Positions 51,551 through 64,000 of a stretch of 64,000 nt of DNA are shown here, piece by piece. A model generated the notes under the pieces. That model did no database searches. It was given only the letters and a program-made list of their open reading frames with translations, and was not told where the DNA came from. A program made the position numbers and the translations under genes. Location of the stretch: assembly GCF_036345155.1 (NCBI RefSeq), contig NZ_CP107772.1, positions 4,836,001 to 4,900,000 on the forward strand, in the 5' to 3' direction. The DNA is from Streptomyces sp. NBC_00582. GTDB taxonomy: Bacteria; Actinomycetota; Actinomycetes; Streptomycetales; Streptomycetaceae. The first letter of the stretch is position 1. Every line of letters starts with the position of its first letter.

Positions 51551-51593
51551 GAGCCGCCTTCGGGATTCGAACCCGAGACCTACGCATCACGAG
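51551..51593 (-). tRNA. 3' half of tRNA-Thr(CGT): left attachment-site remnant
   Basis: On the minus strand this reads CTCGTGATGCGTAGGTCTCG, then GGTTCGAATCCCGAAGGCGG and CTC. It contains the anticodon loop from C32, the 3' side of the anticodon stem, the T-arm TCGGGTTCGAATCCCGA and acceptor strand AGGCGGC. The loop reads CTCGTGA, so the anticodon would be CGT. The 5' half is missing, so it is not functional. It is the displaced 3' end left when an element inserted into the tRNA, and one end of a 43-bp repeat pair. Confidence 0.85.
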
Positions 51594-52164: not shown

Positions 52165-52280
52165 ACTGATGCCGCCAGATGCCGTTGTGCCTGATCAAAC
52201 CACATGCGTCGTACCGGACGCCGGTACCTCGGACCGCAACATCCAAAGGCGTCCGGCCACCCCATGGCCACCCGGAAGGC
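52165..52280. repeat. imperfect 100-bp repeat, copy 2
   Basis: This is the second copy of the repeat at 51618-51740; the shared 20-bp core lies at 52242-52261. The region from 52092 to 52473 otherwise shows no supported gene; the frame running into the Uma2 gene from 52204 is unlikely to be coding. Confidence 0.6.
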
Positions 52281-52473
52281 GCCCGCCGCCCCTGGAAGTC
52301 ACCCAACGCCAGCTGTTGGGTCCGAACACCTACGGGCCCAGCTCACGCCCCGCGTTACGGCGTCCGCTCGTGCGGACCGGTTCCCCCCTGTGGTGCGCTC
52401 ACGCCACGGAAGTCCACCCGAGGGACGGCTCTGTCCGCCGTATCATGACGGCACACGGGAAGGAGCACCGTCC

Positions 52474-53025
52474 ATGAGTGTCGACGCGATCACGCACACC
52501 GAGTTCCCCGCGGGATACGTGGTGTTCTTCGGCGCCGACGGAAAGATCATCATGACCCCGCAGAGCGAAGAGCACTCCAGCACGATCAGGTCGATGCAGA
52601 TCGACTCTCTCGCCCTCGGCCGTCACGCGAAGGTCACCTCCGACGTCTACATCGACTTCCCCGCCGACGAGAACTCCGCCCCCGACCTGGCCATCCTGCG
52701 CGAGGACGCGCGCAAGGAGGGCAAGCGCTACAGCTTCGAGGACGTCCTGTTGATCTCGGAGGTCGTCTCCACGTCCTCGGCACGCAAGGATTACGACGAC
52801 TGCACCGCGAAGTACGGCCGGTACGGCATCCCCGTCTACCTCGTCGTGGATCCCTACGCCCGGGAAGTCGTCCTGCACACCGAGCCCACCTCCAGCGGCT
52901 ACAGCACCGCCCACACCCGCGCATACGGCACAGGCAAGCTCCCCATCCCCCTGGCCGACGGCCGCACCTTCACCCTTGACCTCGACGAACTCCCCCTGCC
53001 GGACCCGGAGCCCGACACTCACTGA
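52474..53025 (+). CDS. Uma2-family (DUF820) putative restriction endonuclease
   Basis: The 183-residue protein contains KVTSDVYIDFPADENSAPDL, then AILREDARKEGKRYSFEDVL, LISEVVSTSSARKDYDDCTA and KYGRYGIPVYLVVDPYAREV. It carries the PD-(D/E)XK core typical of Uma2 proteins: the acidic residue in SAPDLAIL and the E-V-VS strand. Family members are presumed nucleases, often linked to mobile DNA; the biological role is unsettled. ATG 52474 has AAGGAG eight bases upstream. The usual N-terminal helical segment is somewhat short. Confidence 0.8.
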   Translation: MSVDAITHTEFPAGYVVFFGADGKIIMTPQSEEHSSTIRSMQIDSLALGRHAKVTSDVYIDFPADENSAPDLAILREDARKEGKRYSFEDVLLISEVVSTSSARKDYDDCTAKYGRYGIPVYLVVDPYAREVVLHTEPTSSGYSTAHTRAYGTGKLPIPLADGRTFTLDLDELPLPDPEPDTH

Positions 53026-55838: not shown

Positions 55839-56111
55839 CTGCCGTGTCGGCGCTGATCGTCTCCCTCTGATGCCACTCGCTCAGCCGCGGTTGCTGTCCG
55901 CCCATTCGTCGCTGTTCCACATGACGGACATGGCTCCGACGGGTTCGAACCGGATGCCCGGGTTGTCGCTCTGCCCTCACCAGGCTCCACGCCCTGCCGA
56001 GTGCGCCTTCTCCGAACTCGGGCGCTGGCAGGTGCTCGGCTAGCTGCGAGTCAGCCCGAACCGCATTACCGCCGCGCTCACGCCCTCCTCGTGATCACAT
56101 AAAAGCGATCT
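55839..56111. other. gap at the 3' end of the truncated helicase
   Basis: About 270 bp with no supported gene. It probably holds the junction where the helicase gene lost its 3' end. GACGGGTTCGAACCGGATGCCC near 55938 looks T-arm-like but has no tRNA around it. Confidence 0.4.
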
Positions 56112-59108
56112 TCACTTGAAAGACGGTTTGTCGGAAACGCTCAGTACAAGCGCCGCGGTGACGATTTGCGGTGGCTTCGTCGACATCAGCTGCTGCTGGT
56201 CGAGCAGTGCGAGACGCCTCCGAAGCCGTACATCGAGCTCGACAGCCTTGCGGTGGAGGCTCTCGGAGGATTCCTTGGGCTTCTCGCCCCTCCGTTCCTT
56301 CTCGGAGGCCGCCGCACCATCGAGGAGCAGCCGCTCGCTCTCCGAGGTCAGGCGCTTGGTCACCAGTTCCCGGGTCTTGATCAGCTCTGCCAGGCGACGG
56401 GGCTGGACCTCGGCCAGGTATTCGGGAAGCTGGTTGGCGATGATCCAGCTGGTTGCCTTGTCTTCGGCGTCTGCGAGCCAGGGAAGTCCGCATGCGATGT
56501 CGGTCGCCGCGCCGTTGGGCGCCGCGGCGCAGTCGAGGTAGGGCGCGGGGCCGGCGGGGTGCACGGTGCCGTGGCTGTCGACGTAGGCGTAGGCGAAACG
56601 TCGGGCCACCGACTCACCCGTGGCGTCCGCGACCTCTTCGACGACCCCGACCAGGAGATGCGGTTCTTCGAGGGTGGCCGATACGAGGACGGTGCCCTGG
56701 TTCAGGGCACCCCCGAAGTTCCGGATGGTTTCGTCCATGACGGCGTCGTGCAGCGGGTGGCCGGGGGCGAGCAGGTCGGCGCCGGCACGGTCGTCAGGCT
56801 GGACGCGGTTGAGGTCGAAGGTGACGCGGTCGTACTTGGTGGCAATCGGTCCCTTGCCTGCCGAGCGGATGTGCTGGGGCACGTTGGCTATCTCGTAGTG
56901 ACCCTGTTCGTGCTTGACGATCCGGCCGCCGAGCCGGGTGAAGGCGTCCTTGAAGGTCGATTCGATGTAGTGCGGCTGAAGACGTCGAGAGCGGGCTTCG
57001 TCCATCGTGGCGCGCAGAGCACGAAGATCGGCGTCCGAGAGGTGCTCCGAAGTGAGCGCACGCTCGTCCAGAAGGCTCTTGAGGCCGTCTCCGACGGTAG
57101 TGTCGATAACTTCGTGCATCCTTTCCTGCACATGTGGCTGCTCACCGTACTGGATGGCATCGAGCAGCAAGTCTCGCAGCGGGGTCTCGGCGAACGCCTC
57201 TCCCAGAACATCGAAGACCTTCCCTCCGTACGTCTCGCGCATCTGGTCGAGCTTCTCCAGCAGGCGCGTAAATACCTCGCCCTCACGGGTGTTGGAGGCG
57301 ACGAGGTTCCAGAGCCGGCAGACCTCCTCCTGCCCGATGCGGTGGATGCGACCGAAGCGCTGCTCGATGCGGTTGGGGTTCCAGGGCAGGTCGTAGTTGA
57401 CCATCAAGTGTGCAGCCTGCAGGTTGAGTCCCTCGCCGGCGGCGTCGGTGGCCAGCAGGATCTGAACCTCGCGGTTCTTGGTGAACTCCTCGGTGATCTG
57501 CCGCCGTTCGTCCCGGCGTACGCCGCCGTGTATAGCCTTGACGGCATCGGGCTTGCTCAGGAGCGACCCGATCTTGCCCTGCAGATAGTGCAAAGTGTCG
57601 CGGTGCTCAGTGAAGATGATGAGTTTCCGAGGCCGGCCGTTGGCGTCTGTCACCTGCGCGTAGTCCCGGAGGAGGGCGGACAGCTCGGTCCACTTGCGGT
57701 CCGTACCTGCCTCTCGGACCCGCTGCGCCGTCTTCACCAACGCCCTCAGCTCGATGAGCTCGACGTTGAGCTCCTCGACCGTCTGCGCTGCCGTCGCGGC
57801 ATCGAGCAGTTCCTCCTCGGTCTCCTCGATCTCTTCGGCATTGAAGTCGCCGTTGTCGAAGTCGGCGAGGTCGATGGTGGGCATGCTCTCGCGCCAGGTG
57901 CCGTTGAGGATCTCCTGCTTCTTGCGCTCCAGGCGCTCGGTACGCCGCACGAGGCTCTTGTAGATCGCCTCGGGGCTGGAGGCCAGGCGTCGCTGCAGAA
58001 CGGTAAGCGCAAAACCGACAGTGTTCTTGCGTTTACCGCCGACGCGGTCGGCGTGGTTCATCCCCTCGCGCACATAGTGGGTGACGTCCTCGTAAAGGTC
58101 GTACTCGAGTGCCGTGAGCTCGTATGGGACGGTCTCCGCGATGCGCTCGGGGAAGAGCTTCCTGCCCTCGAAGGTGAGCAGGTCTTCCTTGATCATGCGC
58201 CGCATGATCCCGCTGACGTCGGCGCTCCTCTTCTGCCTGCCCTCGAACCGGTCACGGTCCAGCAGGGTGAGGAAGAGCTGGAAGTCCTCCTCCTTTCCCG
58301 AGTGCGGGGTCGCTGTCATCAGGAGCAGGTGGCGAGTGATCTCGCCGAGCATCTCGCCGAGCTGGAACCGTTTGGTCTTCTCCACCTTGCCGCCGAAGTA
58401 GTGGGCACCCATGCGGTGCGCCTCGTCAACGACGATCAGGTCCCACTCCGTCTCCTGAAGATGCGCCTTCAAGTGCTCGTTACGAGAGAGCTGGTCCATG
58501 CGAGCGATCAGAAGCGGGGTGGTCTCGAAGACGTTGAGATGGAGCTGGGAGTCGATGAGCTGGTTGGTGAGCAGGTCGAAGCGGAGGCCGAACTTGAAGA
58601 AGAGCTCGTCCTGCCACTGATCGACCAGGCCTCCCGGAGCCACGATGAGGCACCGCTTGACGTCATCGCGCAGCAGGAGCTCCTTGATGTAGAGCCCAGC
58701 CATGATTGTCTTTCCTGCGCCCGGATCGTCGGCGAGCAGGAAGCGCAGCGGTGTACGGGGCATGAGCTCGCCGTACACGGCGCGGATCTGGTGAGGGAGC
58801 GGCTGAACGTCACTGGTCGCCACGGCGACCATCGGGTCGAAGAGGCCGGCCAGTGAGATCCGCTGAGCCTCGGCGACCAGCTTGAAGTCACTTGCGTTCG
58901 CGTCGAAGGCGCGGCTGCCGCTGCGGGCGACGCTCAGCTTGTCCTCGTCTTTTCGGAAGACGACCCGCTGGTCGAGGCCACCCGCGGCGGTCTTGTAGGT
59001 CAGCTCGAGTGCGTTCGCACCGTGCCACTGAGCGGCGATGACCGTGACGACCTCCGTCGGCATGAGTCCGTCGATCCGCAGCCCCGGCTTGAGCTCCTCG
59101 AGTAGCAC
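56112..59108 (-). CDS. SNF2/DEAD-type ATPase, DrmD-like, lacking the usual C-terminal extension
   Basis: The 998-residue protein starts MLLEELKPGLRIDGLMPTEV. It has HQIRAVYGEL (106-115), Walker A ADDPGAGKT (126-134), DEAH at 228-231, motif III LLLMTATPHSGKEEDFQLF (about 258-276), and a C-terminal helicase lobe with LLATDAAGEGLNLQAAHLMV and QRFGRIHRIGQ. The order matches the large SNF2-type ATPases of DISARM-like and related anti-phage loci (DrmD). Those proteins usually continue after PPVVVGGALVVP-like sequence into DUF3883 or other modules; here it stops at LMSTKPPQIVTAALVLSVSD, then KPSFK. It is divergent from a second SNF2 gene across 125 bp. Confidence 0.8.
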   Translation of the reverse strand: MLLEELKPGLRIDGLMPTEVVTVIAAQWHGANALELTYKTAAGGLDQRVVFRKDEDKLSVARSGSRAFDANASDFKLVAEAQRISLAGLFDPMVAVATSDVQPLPHQIRAVYGELMPRTPLRFLLADDPGAGKTIMAGLYIKELLLRDDVKRCLIVAPGGLVDQWQDELFFKFGLRFDLLTNQLIDSQLHLNVFETTPLLIARMDQLSRNEHLKAHLQETEWDLIVVDEAHRMGAHYFGGKVEKTKRFQLGEMLGEITRHLLLMTATPHSGKEEDFQLFLTLLDRDRFEGRQKRSADVSGIMRRMIKEDLLTFEGRKLFPERIAETVPYELTALEYDLYEDVTHYVREGMNHADRVGGKRKNTVGFALTVLQRRLASSPEAIYKSLVRRTERLERKKQEILNGTWRESMPTIDLADFDNGDFNAEEIEETEEELLDAATAAQTVEELNVELIELRALVKTAQRVREAGTDRKWTELSALLRDYAQVTDANGRPRKLIIFTEHRDTLHYLQGKIGSLLSKPDAVKAIHGGVRRDERRQITEEFTKNREVQILLATDAAGEGLNLQAAHLMVNYDLPWNPNRIEQRFGRIHRIGQEEVCRLWNLVASNTREGEVFTRLLEKLDQMRETYGGKVFDVLGEAFAETPLRDLLLDAIQYGEQPHVQERMHEVIDTTVGDGLKSLLDERALTSEHLSDADLRALRATMDEARSRRLQPHYIESTFKDAFTRLGGRIVKHEQGHYEIANVPQHIRSAGKGPIATKYDRVTFDLNRVQPDDRAGADLLAPGHPLHDAVMDETIRNFGGALNQGTVLVSATLEEPHLLVGVVEEVADATGESVARRFAYAYVDSHGTVHPAGPAPYLDCAAAPNGAATDIACGLPWLADAEDKATSWIIANQLPEYLAEVQPRRLAELIKTRELVTKRLTSESERLLLDGAAASEKERRGEKPKESSESLHRKAVELDVRLRRRLALLDQQQLMSTKPPQIVTAALVLSVSDKPSFK

Positions 59109-59233
59109 GTAGACAACCTCCTGCTTGGCGGCCTGCGAACGCTACTCGGACGTTCCGGCGATTTCCTGATCCCGTCGACTTCGTCAACCGGGGTCGCTAA
59201 TCTTCCCAGAGGCCATGCGAGTCGGCGGGGGCA
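59109..59233. promoter_or_regulatory. divergent promoter of the two SNF2 genes
   Basis: This 125-bp interval should drive both genes. It contains GGCGGGGGCA before the rightward ATG and AGGTTGTCTA before the leftward one. No perfect palindrome longer than 6 bp is obvious. Confidence 0.5.
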
Positions 59234-61858
59234 ATGGAGCGAGAAGCACGTCAGCACCTGCGTGGTGTGGTGGAGGAGATCAGCGGGTGGCGCAAGCTCG
59301 CGGTGGGGATCGTCGAGCAACGTGAGACCGTCGAGGCAGCGGCGGAAGACGCCGCCAGGCAGTTCCGCGGCCGCGTGGCCTCACTCGGGACCGGAACGAC
59401 CACCACCGCATGGCGCGTACTTCAGGTCTCGCCGTCCGATGTCGACCTGGTGACCTCCCTGGCCTGCCGTCAGGCTCTTCCGGCGCTCACAACGAATGCC
59501 CAGCAGGGCATCCAGCAGTTGACCAACGACGTCGGCCGGGCGTTGACGGCCGTCCGGGCGCTGTTCGGGGCCCGCCGAATATTGTCGGGCAAAAGCCGCA
59601 AGGATGAAGCAGAGCAGGCTGCGACATACCTGATATCCCTCCGCGAGCGGGCTACAAGCACCCCACTCGTAACCGAGTTGGTAAGCCTTGGAGCATGGGA
59701 CAGGAAGGCTGTCCCCGCAATCAGGCTCTCGGCCATCCTCGATGACACGGTCGGCTTCGCCCAGCTCCTCGGCGGCCGAGCCGAACTCGTCGGGCGGCAT
59801 GAACTGGATGTCGCCAAGACCGCTATCAGCGCGATCGATCAGGCCCTGCAGCGCGAGGACCAGTTCAGAACGGCAGTCACTGCCGCCGGCAATGCCGTCC
59901 GACAGGCCGAGGCTCGCAAGCTGGTCGCCGAAATGCCCGTCGAGCGGCTCAAGGACGCAACCAGCGGCCAACTGCGCATCACGGCTCTGACCGATGCCGG
60001 GATCAGGAACGTGCAGCAGGTTCTCGACCAGAAATCACGGATTCGATCGCTCCCCGGAGTCGGTGAGACGACGGGCAAGCGGATGGTCGGCGCCGCACGG
60101 ACCATCTGGCAGACCACGCTGGACGAGATGCCGGTCCGAATCGACATCAGGAACCGATCCCGCGACACCACGAAGCTCCTCACGGCGATGCGGGCTTGGG
60201 ACGCGGCACGCTCGATCCGCAGCGCGACAGCCGACCTCACTGCCGCCGACGCGGTTCGGCCGCTCCTCCAAAGCCTTGATTCCGAGACCTCCCACGTGGT
60301 TCTCGTCCCCCAGGCTCGAACCGTCGCCGAGTTGCGTACCGCACTGGCGGCCGTCGAGCGCCGCGGGGCGAAGCTCAACGGCGGGGACGACGCCGCAGGC
60401 GGTGATCCTTGGGAGGATTTCAGCGCGCGCCCGGCCGACTACTACGCGATGCTCGCGGAGCTGGGATTCCTGGCTGACGACGCCGAAAAGAGTCACGGCA
60501 ATCTACCGACCGAAATCGTCGAGGCGGTCAGGGAACTCAAGCTCGACACCAGCCACCTGAAGGCGTCCCTTCGTGGATACCAGTCGTTCGGTGCCCGCTT
60601 CGCAATCGTGCAACGGAAGGTCATCATCGGCGATGAGATGGGTCTGGGAAAGACGGTCGAGTCACTCGCCGTACTCGCCCACTTGCGCGCCAAAGGCTCC
60701 TCCCAGTTCCTGGTCGTGTGCCCAGCCGCTGTCGTGACCAACTGGGTGCGCGAAGTCCAGGCCAAGTCCGATCTGCGCGCGTATCGCCTGCACGGGCCCG
60801 GTCGCGACGACGCGCTGAAGTCCTGGATCCGCAACGGTGGAGTCGCGGTCACCACCTACGACATCCTCGGTTGGCTGGAAGGCCGGATCCCCGAACGCGC
60901 CGAACTTGCGTGCCTGGTGTTCGACGAAGCGCACTACATCAAGAATCCGGACGCCCAGCGAACCCGGCGATCCACGGCCCTGATCAAGAGCTCGGAGCGA
61001 GCGATCCTACTGACCGGCACCCCGCTGGAGAACCGGATCGAGGAATTCCGCAATCTCGTCGGCTACCTCCGGCCAGACCTGTCGATCAGTGCCTCGGAAA
61101 TCGCTCCTCGCCAGTTCCGGAAGCAGGTGGCACCGGCCTACCTGCGGCGCAATCAGGAAGACGTCCTCACCGAGCTCCCGGAGCGGTTCGAAGTCGACGA
61201 GTGGATGCCGATGTCCAGCGCCGACGAGCAGCACTACCGAGCGGCTGTCATCGAAGGCAACTTCATGGCCATGCGCCAGGCCGCGCTACGCGCCGGCGCG
61301 AAGTCCGAGAAGATGCAGCGCCTCATCGACATCGTCCAGGAGGCAGAGGACAACGAGCGCAAGGTGCTGGTCTTCTCGTACTTCCGTGACGTCCTCGATG
61401 CAGTGGCGTCGGTCCTTCCGGGGAAGGTGTTCGGGCCCCTTACCGGCTCTGTTCCCGCCGCGAAGCGACAGAGCATGGTTGATGAATTCTCCCAAGCCCG
61501 CCACGGGGCAGTCCTCGTCGCACAGATCGTGGCAGGCGGCGTCGGTCTAAACATTCAGTCAGCATCGGTCGTCGTTATCTGCGAGCCCCAGCTCAAGCCG
61601 ACGACCGAATGGCAAGCCATCGGCCGCTCCCACAGGATGGGGCAGCTGGAGTCGGTACAAGTGCACCGCCTGCTCTCTGAGGAAGGCGTCGACCAGCGCA
61701 TCATTGAGATCCTGGCACGCAAGAACCAACTCTTCGCGGAGTTTGCCCGCGTCTCCGAAACCGCCGACAGCGCCCCGGAAGCGTTCGACATCACGGATGC
61801 TGAGCTGGCACGGGAGATCGTGGCGGCCGAGCGCGAGCGCCTACTCGCGGGCGGCTGA
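59234..61858 (+). CDS. SNF2-family ATPase with N-terminal helix-hairpin-helix region
   Basis: The 874-residue protein has a 400-residue helical N-terminus without a known domain except helix-hairpin-helix sequence IRSLPGVGETTGKRMVGAAR (270-289). The SNF2 core follows: Walker A GDEMGLGKT (466-474), DEAH at 564-567 (VFDEAHYIKNP), LLTGTPLENRIEEFRNLVGY, and the C-terminal lobe with LVFSYFRDVLDAV, VAQIVAGGVGLNIQSAS and IGRSHRMGQLESVQVHRL. All helicase motifs look intact. The HhH suggests contact with non-sequence-specific or structured DNA. The function is unknown. ATG 59234 is chosen; the leader holds GGCGGGGG. Confidence 0.85.
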   Translation: MEREARQHLRGVVEEISGWRKLAVGIVEQRETVEAAAEDAARQFRGRVASLGTGTTTTAWRVLQVSPSDVDLVTSLACRQALPALTTNAQQGIQQLTNDVGRALTAVRALFGARRILSGKSRKDEAEQAATYLISLRERATSTPLVTELVSLGAWDRKAVPAIRLSAILDDTVGFAQLLGGRAELVGRHELDVAKTAISAIDQALQREDQFRTAVTAAGNAVRQAEARKLVAEMPVERLKDATSGQLRITALTDAGIRNVQQVLDQKSRIRSLPGVGETTGKRMVGAARTIWQTTLDEMPVRIDIRNRSRDTTKLLTAMRAWDAARSIRSATADLTAADAVRPLLQSLDSETSHVVLVPQARTVAELRTALAAVERRGAKLNGGDDAAGGDPWEDFSARPADYYAMLAELGFLADDAEKSHGNLPTEIVEAVRELKLDTSHLKASLRGYQSFGARFAIVQRKVIIGDEMGLGKTVESLAVLAHLRAKGSSQFLVVCPAAVVTNWVREVQAKSDLRAYRLHGPGRDDALKSWIRNGGVAVTTYDILGWLEGRIPERAELACLVFDEAHYIKNPDAQRTRRSTALIKSSERAILLTGTPLENRIEEFRNLVGYLRPDLSISASEIAPRQFRKQVAPAYLRRNQEDVLTELPERFEVDEWMPMSSADEQHYRAAVIEGNFMAMRQAALRAGAKSEKMQRLIDIVQEAEDNERKVLVFSYFRDVLDAVASVLPGKVFGPLTGSVPAAKRQSMVDEFSQARHGAVLVAQIVAGGVGLNIQSASVVVICEPQLKPTTEWQAIGRSHRMGQLESVQVHRLLSEEGVDQRIIEILARKNQLFAEFARVSETADSAPEAFDITDAELAREIVAAERERLLAGG

Positions 61859-61900
61859 AGCACGCGAGGCACGGATTCTGATCAAGAATGATCAGATGTA

Positions 61901-62452: not shown

Positions 62453-62495
62453 GAGCCGCCTTCGGGATTCGAACCCGAGACCTACGCATTACGAG
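62453..62495 (-). tRNA. 3' half of tRNA-Thr(CGT): right attachment-site remnant
   Basis: On the minus strand it reads CTCGTAATGCGTAGGTCTCG, then GGTTCGAATCCCGAAGGCGG and CTC, with the wild-type loop CTCGTAA (anticodon CGT). Beyond it the sequence is GTTGTCCGATC, not the expected D-arm and acceptor half, so the tRNA is incomplete. A shorter 16-bp copy of its middle (GACCTACGCATTACGA) lies upstream at 62345-62360. It differs at one base from the left copy. Confidence 0.85.
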
Positions 62496-62733: not shown

Positions 62734-64000
62734 TCATCCTTGGCCATGAATCAGAGCCTCTGTAGCCAGAACCCGAGCTAGAGCGACATCGGGCTGAAGA
62801 TTGTTAGCCTCCACACTTCGAGGCAGAAGAACTGGAATCGACGCATACTTTGGATCATCTTTCGCGTGCACGATTCTATTCCTCAGCGCGTAAATCCGTT
62901 TCGCAACCTGAACCGAAAGCGGCTCACTTTTAGGATGCAAAGAGATTTCAGGAATTCCGGCAATCGGTCCTTTGTTTGCAAAATGCTTCACATCTACATC
63001 ATCGAAAAACTCTTTCAACTTCTCCTCTCGAACGAAGTCCCGCACAAGAACCTTGAGCTGCTCTTCTTCACTAGCCTGCTTAAGGCGCTCAATCGAATTG
63101 AGCAAGGTCAGGACAGATGAATCCTCCCCCTCATCAAAGTACGGATCCTTCAACGCTATCCGTAGAGCCTTAACTGCGTCTCGCTTGTGCGCCATGGGGA
63201 GGAAGTACTCTAGGACCTGGTAGTACGACAGAAAAATGAAAGGGGGGTTATCAGATGCCTCGGCCGCAAAGGAGAAGAGTGCCGCAACTTCCCTCGGGGT
63301 CTTGAGCCGCGGGAATCGAATCTTTGGCGAGTTCGATCCAGGAGACGCCTCAAACGAAACGCGCAACCGCTCGCGGGGCTCCAGAACGAAGTGGATTCCG
63401 TTCCTGATGTCAAGCTCAAAGATCGACCGAGCTGCAATATCGGTAGCCTGGCGTGACACGGATTCGCCATCCAGTGAAGGTTCGACGAAAACCTTCAGCG
63501 TGTACATCCTCAAGGAGTTCTCTGGATACGCCGTCACAAAAGGCCAAGGGTCAGTCAGAAACGTTGCGGTTGCGGTAGCTCGCGAAAGCTCCACGCACGC
63601 CCTTTCCTTGGGTGAATGCACATGAAATCCGATCCTGCTCGATTCTGCCTCACGACCGTTGGGGCGAGTCGGCTCCGAAGGAATGAATGCGTGACTACAC
63701 TCTGCGTCATCCGAAACCCATTTAAGTCTCTCGATATACCTCCGGAGAGGCATCGACCTGCTAGGTCGAACCGTGAACTCCGCATATCCTCTACCCGGCA
63801 AGAGAAATCCAGCGTATTCGGAATGCTCGACCGCGCCATTAACTAGATCGTCCGCGACAATCGACAGACTAGCAACAGGAACGAAACGGAATCTTTCCCC
63901 TCTCTTACCTGGTTTGGAATCAACGAACATGGCCATGCCGTCTTTGACGCTCGAAAGCTTACGACTGTCACCTTCAATTACTTGCACGGCATTCTTCTGG
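62734..64000 (-). CDS. unknown protein with HEPN-like C-terminal motif (5' end beyond the window)
   Basis: The frame is open to the right edge, so the start is outside. The visible 422 residues include PFIFLSYYQVLEYFLPMAHK, then a helical C-terminal part ending VQVAKRIYALRNRIVHAKDD. The R-N-x3-H (RNRIVH) motif after a helix is the R-x4-6-H active-site signature of HEPN ribonucleases, which are common in abortive-infection systems. GC content and codon use are visibly lower than in the genome core (many AAA, ATA, TTC/TTT codons). It lies outside the left island, probably in a second element at the same tRNA. The function is otherwise unrecognised. Confidence 0.6.
   Translation of the reverse strand, partial: QKNAVQVIEGDSRKLSSVKDGMAMFVDSKPGKRGERFRFVPVASLSIVADDLVNGAVEHSEYAGFLLPGRGYAEFTVRPSRSMPLRRYIERLKWVSDDAECSHAFIPSEPTRPNGREAESSRIGFHVHSPKERACVELSRATATATFLTDPWPFVTAYPENSLRMYTLKVFVEPSLDGESVSRQATDIAARSIFELDIRNGIHFVLEPRERLRVSFEASPGSNSPKIRFPRLKTPREVAALFSFAAEASDNPPFIFLSYYQVLEYFLPMAHKRDAVKALRIALKDPYFDEGEDSSVLTLLNSIERLKQASEEEQLKVLVRDFVREEKLKEFFDDVDVKHFANKGPIAGIPEISLHPKSEPLSVQVAKRIYALRNRIVHAKDDPKYASIPVLLPRSVEANNLQPDVALARVLATEALIHGQG

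Follow-up and report, generated by a model that had tools for sequence, protein, structure and literature searches.

Two SNF2-family motor genes lie back to back on an island in the 64-kb stretch of DNA analysed here (the window). The first, P1, encodes an HmaA-type SNF2/RapA-like helicase of 998 residues, begins with GTG and lies on the minus strand (56112..59108; set by its PADLOC HmaA match and an alignment with 18 relatives). The second, P2, encodes another SNF2-family motor of 874 residues, begins with ATG and lies on the plus strand (59234..61858). The two open reading frames are intact and divergent, both proteins carry SNF2-type and Helicase_C domains above the Pfam cut-offs, and all five motifs checked, including Walker A and DEAH, are present in each. 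A sequence-only reading of this DNA had described two SNF2 ATPases of these lengths, and that description holds.

The 125-bp spacer between the genes (59109..59233) keeps a length of 121-129 bp in 22 divergent loci, the window counted. Alignment of these spacers revealed two -10-like boxes that are conserved as a consensus, with letters that vary: TAATCT (59198..59203, plus strand), the probable -10 box of P2, and TAGCGT (59139..59144, minus strand), the probable -10 box of P1. The spacer had been called a shared 125-bp promoter; its length stands, and a promoter role is what the boxes suggest.

The pair sits on a 10.9-kb segment with a 43-nt 3' fragment of tRNA-Thr at its left end (51551..51593, plus strand) and another at its right end (62453..62495, plus strand), in keeping with the island bounded by tRNA-Thr repeats that had been reported. 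The largest count of this repeat in 100 shuffles was 0, and ARAGORN detected no whole tRNA in the 64-kb window. Two more copies of the tRNA-Thr 3' end follow in the genome, a third at 4917112 and a fourth that is an intact tRNA-Thr(CGT) gene at about 5014876. The four copies (C1:4887557 to 5014912) delimit segments of about 10.9, 18.7 and 97.8 kb; spread across about 127 kb, they mark the island as a stack of segments. Only the third and fourth copies have tyrosine-recombinase-like genes nearby (genome 4916537 and 5008072), and none of the 18 such matches falls between the first two.

The 28 related loci described below, searched up to 10 kb on each side, contain no homologue of any ORF of the window (44-64 kb, at least 70 aa) other than P1 and P2. 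The five-gene operon once suggested as a partner of the pair is therefore not part of the unit. Among the scanned ORFs and right-hand neighbours (about 48-74 kb in window coordinates) there is no methylase, DUF1998 or PLD partner, as the earlier reading had said of DISARM-type partners; nor did the scanned neighbours of the window pair yield BREX genes or a PADLOC match to Dpd genes. The left part of the pair's segment also holds a gene for a Uma2-family putative endonuclease (52204-53025, plus strand) that is not conserved with the pair. To the right, on the next island segment, a 529-aa gene (62734-63987, minus strand, to about 64323; L010:8734-10323) gives a weak DzbB match (43 bits) and a sub-threshold MauJ match, and GC falls there to 53%.

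Identity of the two motors

P1 matches the PADLOC HmaA model PDLC00659 with 1227 bits over residues 2-989, and the match ends at HMM position 1023 of 1176. The best PADLOC DrmD model reaches 419 bits and the BrxH models 356 bits and less. In NCBIfam, the DrmD equivalogs score 379 and 177 bits against cut-offs of 610 and 950, and the DpdE equivalog 185 bits against 500. With the HmaA model so far ahead, "DrmD-like", the label first given to one of the ATPases, is the weaker name for P1, and we set it aside. Judged by its sequence, P1 is an HmaA without the nuclease; HmaA is the helicase of Hma, a Type-1 BREX-related (BR) system. Hma comprises HmaABC (Payne 2021, PMC8565338) and is described in PMC12839542 as a Type-1, DUF499-centred BREX-related system; its HmaB is an m5C methyltransferase in PMC8565338 and an adenine methylase in PMC12839542, as in the PADLOC model name. 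P1 corresponds to HmaA over its first ~1000 residues. Its top match among solved structures (PDB) is RapA, and by sequence it has the SNF2 core of RapA and BrxHII; unlike them, it is partnered with a second motor.

P2 begins with a mostly helical region (residues 1-220), continues with a RAD51-like helix-hairpin-helix (HhH, about 232-296) and ends in an SNF2 core (about 440-840). The earlier reading had placed an HhH in an N-terminus of some 400 residues, and a structure model of that region (pLDDT 88.9) agrees, with residues 233-294 matching the HhH lobes of Dmc1/RAD51. The N-terminus is the fastest-evolving part of the protein (dN/dS 0.43 vs 0.14 for the motor), and the motor is an ordinary SNF2 core that resembles chromatin remodellers. 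PADLOC assigns P2 to its "DpdE" model PDLC02852 with 886 bits over the whole length and gives 485 bits for a "DrmD" model. This label is insufficient to name P2 DpdE, since the NCBIfam DpdE model reaches only 84 bits against a cut-off of 500. The NCBIfam DrmD equivalogs yield 63 and 85 bits (cut-offs 610 and 950), and the top NCBIfam match, "pilus_reg_Snf2", is far below threshold (174 bits vs 1100). DrmD of DISARM and DpdE of Dpd are thus similar to our proteins as SNF2 ATPases of defence loci whose PADLOC models fit P1 and P2, and differ in that both proteins score below the NCBIfam equivalog cut-offs.

These affinities raise the possibility that the pair was co-opted for work other than defence, such as gene regulation, repair or the recycling of polymerase in the manner of RapA. 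RapA as the closest solved structure to P1, the remodeller-like motor and RAD51-like HhH of P2, and the distant pilus_reg_Snf2 match would all fit such a role. We consider it rather improbable, because the patchy occurrence of the pair, its island setting, its descent from a defence system and the fast-evolving N-terminus of P2 suit conflict genes better than housekeeping ones.

The pair as a unit and its Hma relatives

Scanning genome contigs with P2 gave 46 loci, 28 of them close relatives (L048-L075). P1 adjoins P2 in all 26 close-relative loci with enough sequence, a count that leaves out two P2 fragments at contig ends (L059, which is the other half of L074's genome, and L073) and includes L048, where P1 matches over its first 369 residues only, and L074, where P2 runs off the contig. 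The other 18 loci comprise eight from Catellatospora (41-48%, no P1) and ten distant SNF2 proteins; L084-L093, at 23-30% identity, were excluded from every comparison. Among 293 genomes of the window's order, six encode a full-length P2 (at least 84%), and the same six have P1 (at least 86%) beside it; four duplicate loci of the scan, one is the window's and one is new (G252). Seven plasmid records contain a P2 relative, and both of those with full-length P2 have an adjacent P1. P1 therefore stands beside P2 at 30 of 30 places (26 loci, the window, G252 and two plasmids), which divide into 10 Streptomycetaceae, 18 other actinobacterial loci and the two plasmids.

The partners occur in four gene orders: mostly divergent (the 22 spacer-aligned loci, and likewise L072 and L075), tandem with P1 before P2 (L058), tandem with P2 before P1 (L070) and tail-to-tail (L065). 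Because it is kept across all four, the partnership is independent of the shared spacer. P1 does occur without P2, in an Hma locus of G449 (80% identity) and on Gordonia and Rhodococcus plasmids.

Streptomycete relatives sit at other chromosomal sites than the window pair. The longest DNA homology with any of them (G252; blastn, pieces >250 bp, E<=1e-20) covers both genes and about 140 bp more (55973..61875). A UPF0047 gene lies directly beside the pair in L053, L060 and G252 and about 3-9 kb away in L048, L050 and L059; we found no third gene that accompanies P1 and P2 throughout the streptomycete loci. With homology nearly confined to P1 and P2 at differing sites, both genes travel, or are retained, together. 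The P1-P2 pair is a genuine unit. The co-occurrence check proposed for the two ATPases thus came out in favour of the pair, which is adjacent at every place counted, with no drm genes among the scanned neighbours.

Outside the streptomycetes, the pair keeps company with the rest of Hma. HmaB, the DUF1156 methylase, is next to it at 14 of the 18 loci outside that group (four scanned proteins score 970-1075 PADLOC bits; the remaining loci were assigned by tblastn, with L056 and L068 truncated where their contigs stop). HmaB comes after P1 everywhere except in L065, where it is on P1's other side. HmaC, the HEPN-DUF499 ATPase, is found in 12 of the 18; the one scanned, from L062, combines HEPN_Swt1 at its N-terminus with a DUF499 region. 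Two of the four loci lacking HmaB end at contig ends (L054, which has an HmaC elsewhere in its genome, and L071). The other two are L058 of Lentzea and L075, a Microthrixaceae MAG; neither HmaB nor HmaC was found in the Lentzea genome or in the L075 sequence. According to their deposited annotation, both plasmids carry the full set of P1, P2, HmaB and HmaC.

P2 lies outside the hmaA-B-C run in the 14 HmaB-bearing loci and on both plasmids. It thereby differs from the HECs (Hma-embedded candidates), such as the GmrSD-like HEC-05, which are likewise described as extra genes of Hma loci (PMC11411939, PMC12111858): P2 is not between Hma genes, adjoins hmaA, and outlasts HmaB and HmaC. A GmrSD_N (DUF262) type protein does stand between HmaB and HmaC in L061, L066, L067 and L070, and the one scanned (L061) matches HEC-05 weakly. 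P2 thus appears to be a fourth component tied to the Hma system in actinobacteria, an additional SNF2 partner beyond the three genes described for it. At title and abstract level, we found no published account of the P1-P2 pair or of an Hma-linked second SNF2 motor; supplementary tables could list P2.

The earlier reading had proposed a minimal two-motor defence module. A conserved pair without HmaB, HmaC or nuclease does exist in streptomycetes, where only P1 and P2 are conserved with the window, as an independent two-motor defence system unrelated to Hma would have it. Such independence is nevertheless very improbable and is contradicted by phylogeny: P1 belongs to the HmaA family, and the same pair occurs within full Hma loci elsewhere. 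With HmaB beside it in most of the other actinobacterial loci, the pair is not an unrelated new system.

In six mycobacterial loci (L061, L062, L063, L064, L066 and L069), P2 has a C-terminal extension of ~270-310 residues; the one scanned (L061) gave no Pfam match.

Reduction in the streptomycete lineage

All 18 non-streptomycete P1 proteins are 1136-1143 aa long and bear a C-terminal domain. The one scanned (L052) is Pfam NOV_C, and the domain carries the motif EVK, which is LVK in L075. We read it, from sequence and from the description in PMC12839542, as the probable PD-(D/E)XK nuclease. According to that source, 79% of Type-1 BR helicases have a C-terminal nuclease of this type. In L075, PADLOC also calls a type IV restriction enzyme near the pair (L075:498-3902, plus strand, 365 bits), in the same MAG whose P1 nuclease motif is altered.

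The nine complete streptomycete P1 proteins (window, L049, L050, L051, L053, L055, L060, L074 and G252) all end at 996-999 aa, at the same junction and without the domain, and tblastn found no nuclease remnant in their loci. HmaB and HmaC are also absent from nine of the ten streptomycete genomes, the window's included (E<=1e-20; several are drafts). The tenth, G012, has one HmaB and one HmaC beside a different HmaA-like protein (38% identity). The window pair thus differs from described Hma in having neither HmaB, HmaC nor the C-terminal nuclease domain.

In a P1 tree rooted on four ordinary HmaA proteins, the eight streptomycete rows form one clade (SH-aLRT 100) within the nuclease-bearing group, so loss of the domain is derived. 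The P2 tree again places the streptomycetes in one clade. Within that clade the two trees disagree in detail, for instance over L050 and L060, which hints at recombination. Support in these trees is SH-aLRT only, a quick method, and long-branch warnings apply to L058, L065 and L075 (P1) and to L065, L070 and L075 (P2). P2 alignments and trees omit L068 and L071 (broken or discontinuous frames) and the fragments L059, L073 and L074; P1 alignments omit L048. Of the locus comparisons, G252 (L152) entered only the nuclease-remnant tblastn, the comparison of neighbouring genes, the DNA homology search and the frame and motif check. Losing the methylase does not require losing the nuclease, since Lentzea P1 retains its nuclease motif in a genome without HmaB and HmaC.

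One explanation for the streptomycete pair is a decaying relic, with motors not yet erased after nuclease, methylase and ATPase were lost. Maximum-likelihood omega is 0.090 for streptomycete P1 and 0.135 for P2 (nine sequences each), against 0.021 for P1 (seven) and 0.052 for P2 (five) in full-system relatives, which amounts to roughly fourfold weaker selection on P1. The dN/dS comparison mixes divergence levels, and the maximum-likelihood run for the P1 relatives also covered the nuclease columns. Pairwise counting of dN/dS gave 0.216 and 0.229 for streptomycete P1 and P2 (28 pairs each) and 0.055 and 0.147 for relatives (10 pairs each). With omegas well below 1 and above those of their relatives, the streptomycete motors are under weaker but clearly purifying selection. 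This relaxation, the presence of the pair in only six genomes of the order, a G-to-V change in motif V of L074 P1 and the L048 P1, whose match breaks off at residue 369 close to the end of its contig, would all suit a relic. We nonetheless regard decay as rather unlikely: nine P1 and nine P2 frames are open, the five motifs are intact in eight of nine P1 and nine of nine P2 proteins, omega is well below 1, the same pair persists at differing sites including the tRNA-Thr island, and the promoter-like boxes are conserved.

A second possibility is cutting in trans, in which P1 and P2 recruit a host or separately encoded nuclease and remain a restriction-type defence. PMC12839542 describes other nucleases nearby or inside Type-1 BR loci that have no fused nuclease, which makes this conceivable. 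It seems unlikely here, as no third gene is conserved with the streptomycete pairs and, with HmaB absent, the host genome would have no protection by HmaB.

Possible action of the pair

The reading we favour, tentatively and at slightly short of an even chance, sees in the pair the motor core kept from an actinobacterial Hma system with a gained second motor, acting without cutting. The Hma system in actinobacteria would have gained P2. Comparison shows that the streptomycetes have lost the nuclease domain along with HmaB and HmaC and have kept P1 and P2 together, intact and under purifying selection, at differing chromosomal sites. With its HhH and the variable helical region at its N-terminus, P2 may engage particular DNA, or a protein on invading DNA, and P1 may act together with it as a RapA-like translocase. 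Moving along invading DNA, both motors could then obstruct or dislodge complexes of replication or transcription. If invading DNA is not cut, as proposed, a self-protecting methylase would be dispensable.

A more specific proposal, which we find conceivable and somewhat doubtful, is a motor-only immune module: Hma, a restriction-modification-like system, would have shed nuclease, methylase and scanning ATPase, and the two remaining SNF2 motors would still halt invading DNA purely by translocation, the variable P2 N-terminus serving as sensor. Anti-phage activity of the pair is something we infer. The nuclease domain is the primary effector of Type-1 BR systems according to PMC12839542, citing Liu 2024, so the nuclease-less form may not defend; Hma is also counted among systems using DNA nickases in PMC11890865, whose citation range includes Liu 2024. 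Weaker selection on P1, the Lentzea locus, L074 and L048 also speak against the retained-core reading, as does the scant sign of a defence island, with no PADLOC match for any of eight genes scanned beside four streptomycete pairs.

The comparison connects P2, an SNF2 protein so far unassigned, with the widespread Hma system in actinobacteria and reveals a natural series in which one system occurs complete, partly reduced and fully reduced. With such a series it can be asked which components of an RM-like defence are needed for sensing and which for killing. It also raises the questions of whether selection can still maintain a restriction system that has given up both its nuclease and its methylase, and whether motors alone can protect a cell.

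Two further observations concern P2. Its match to PDLC02852 means that a "DpdE" model fits an Hma-associated motor, a possible source of false Dpd calls. A shorter P2 paralogue (HhH plus SNF2, 43-54% identity), with P1 absent from all eight regions examined (L144-L151), is widespread, occurring in 121 of the 293 genomes of the window's order.
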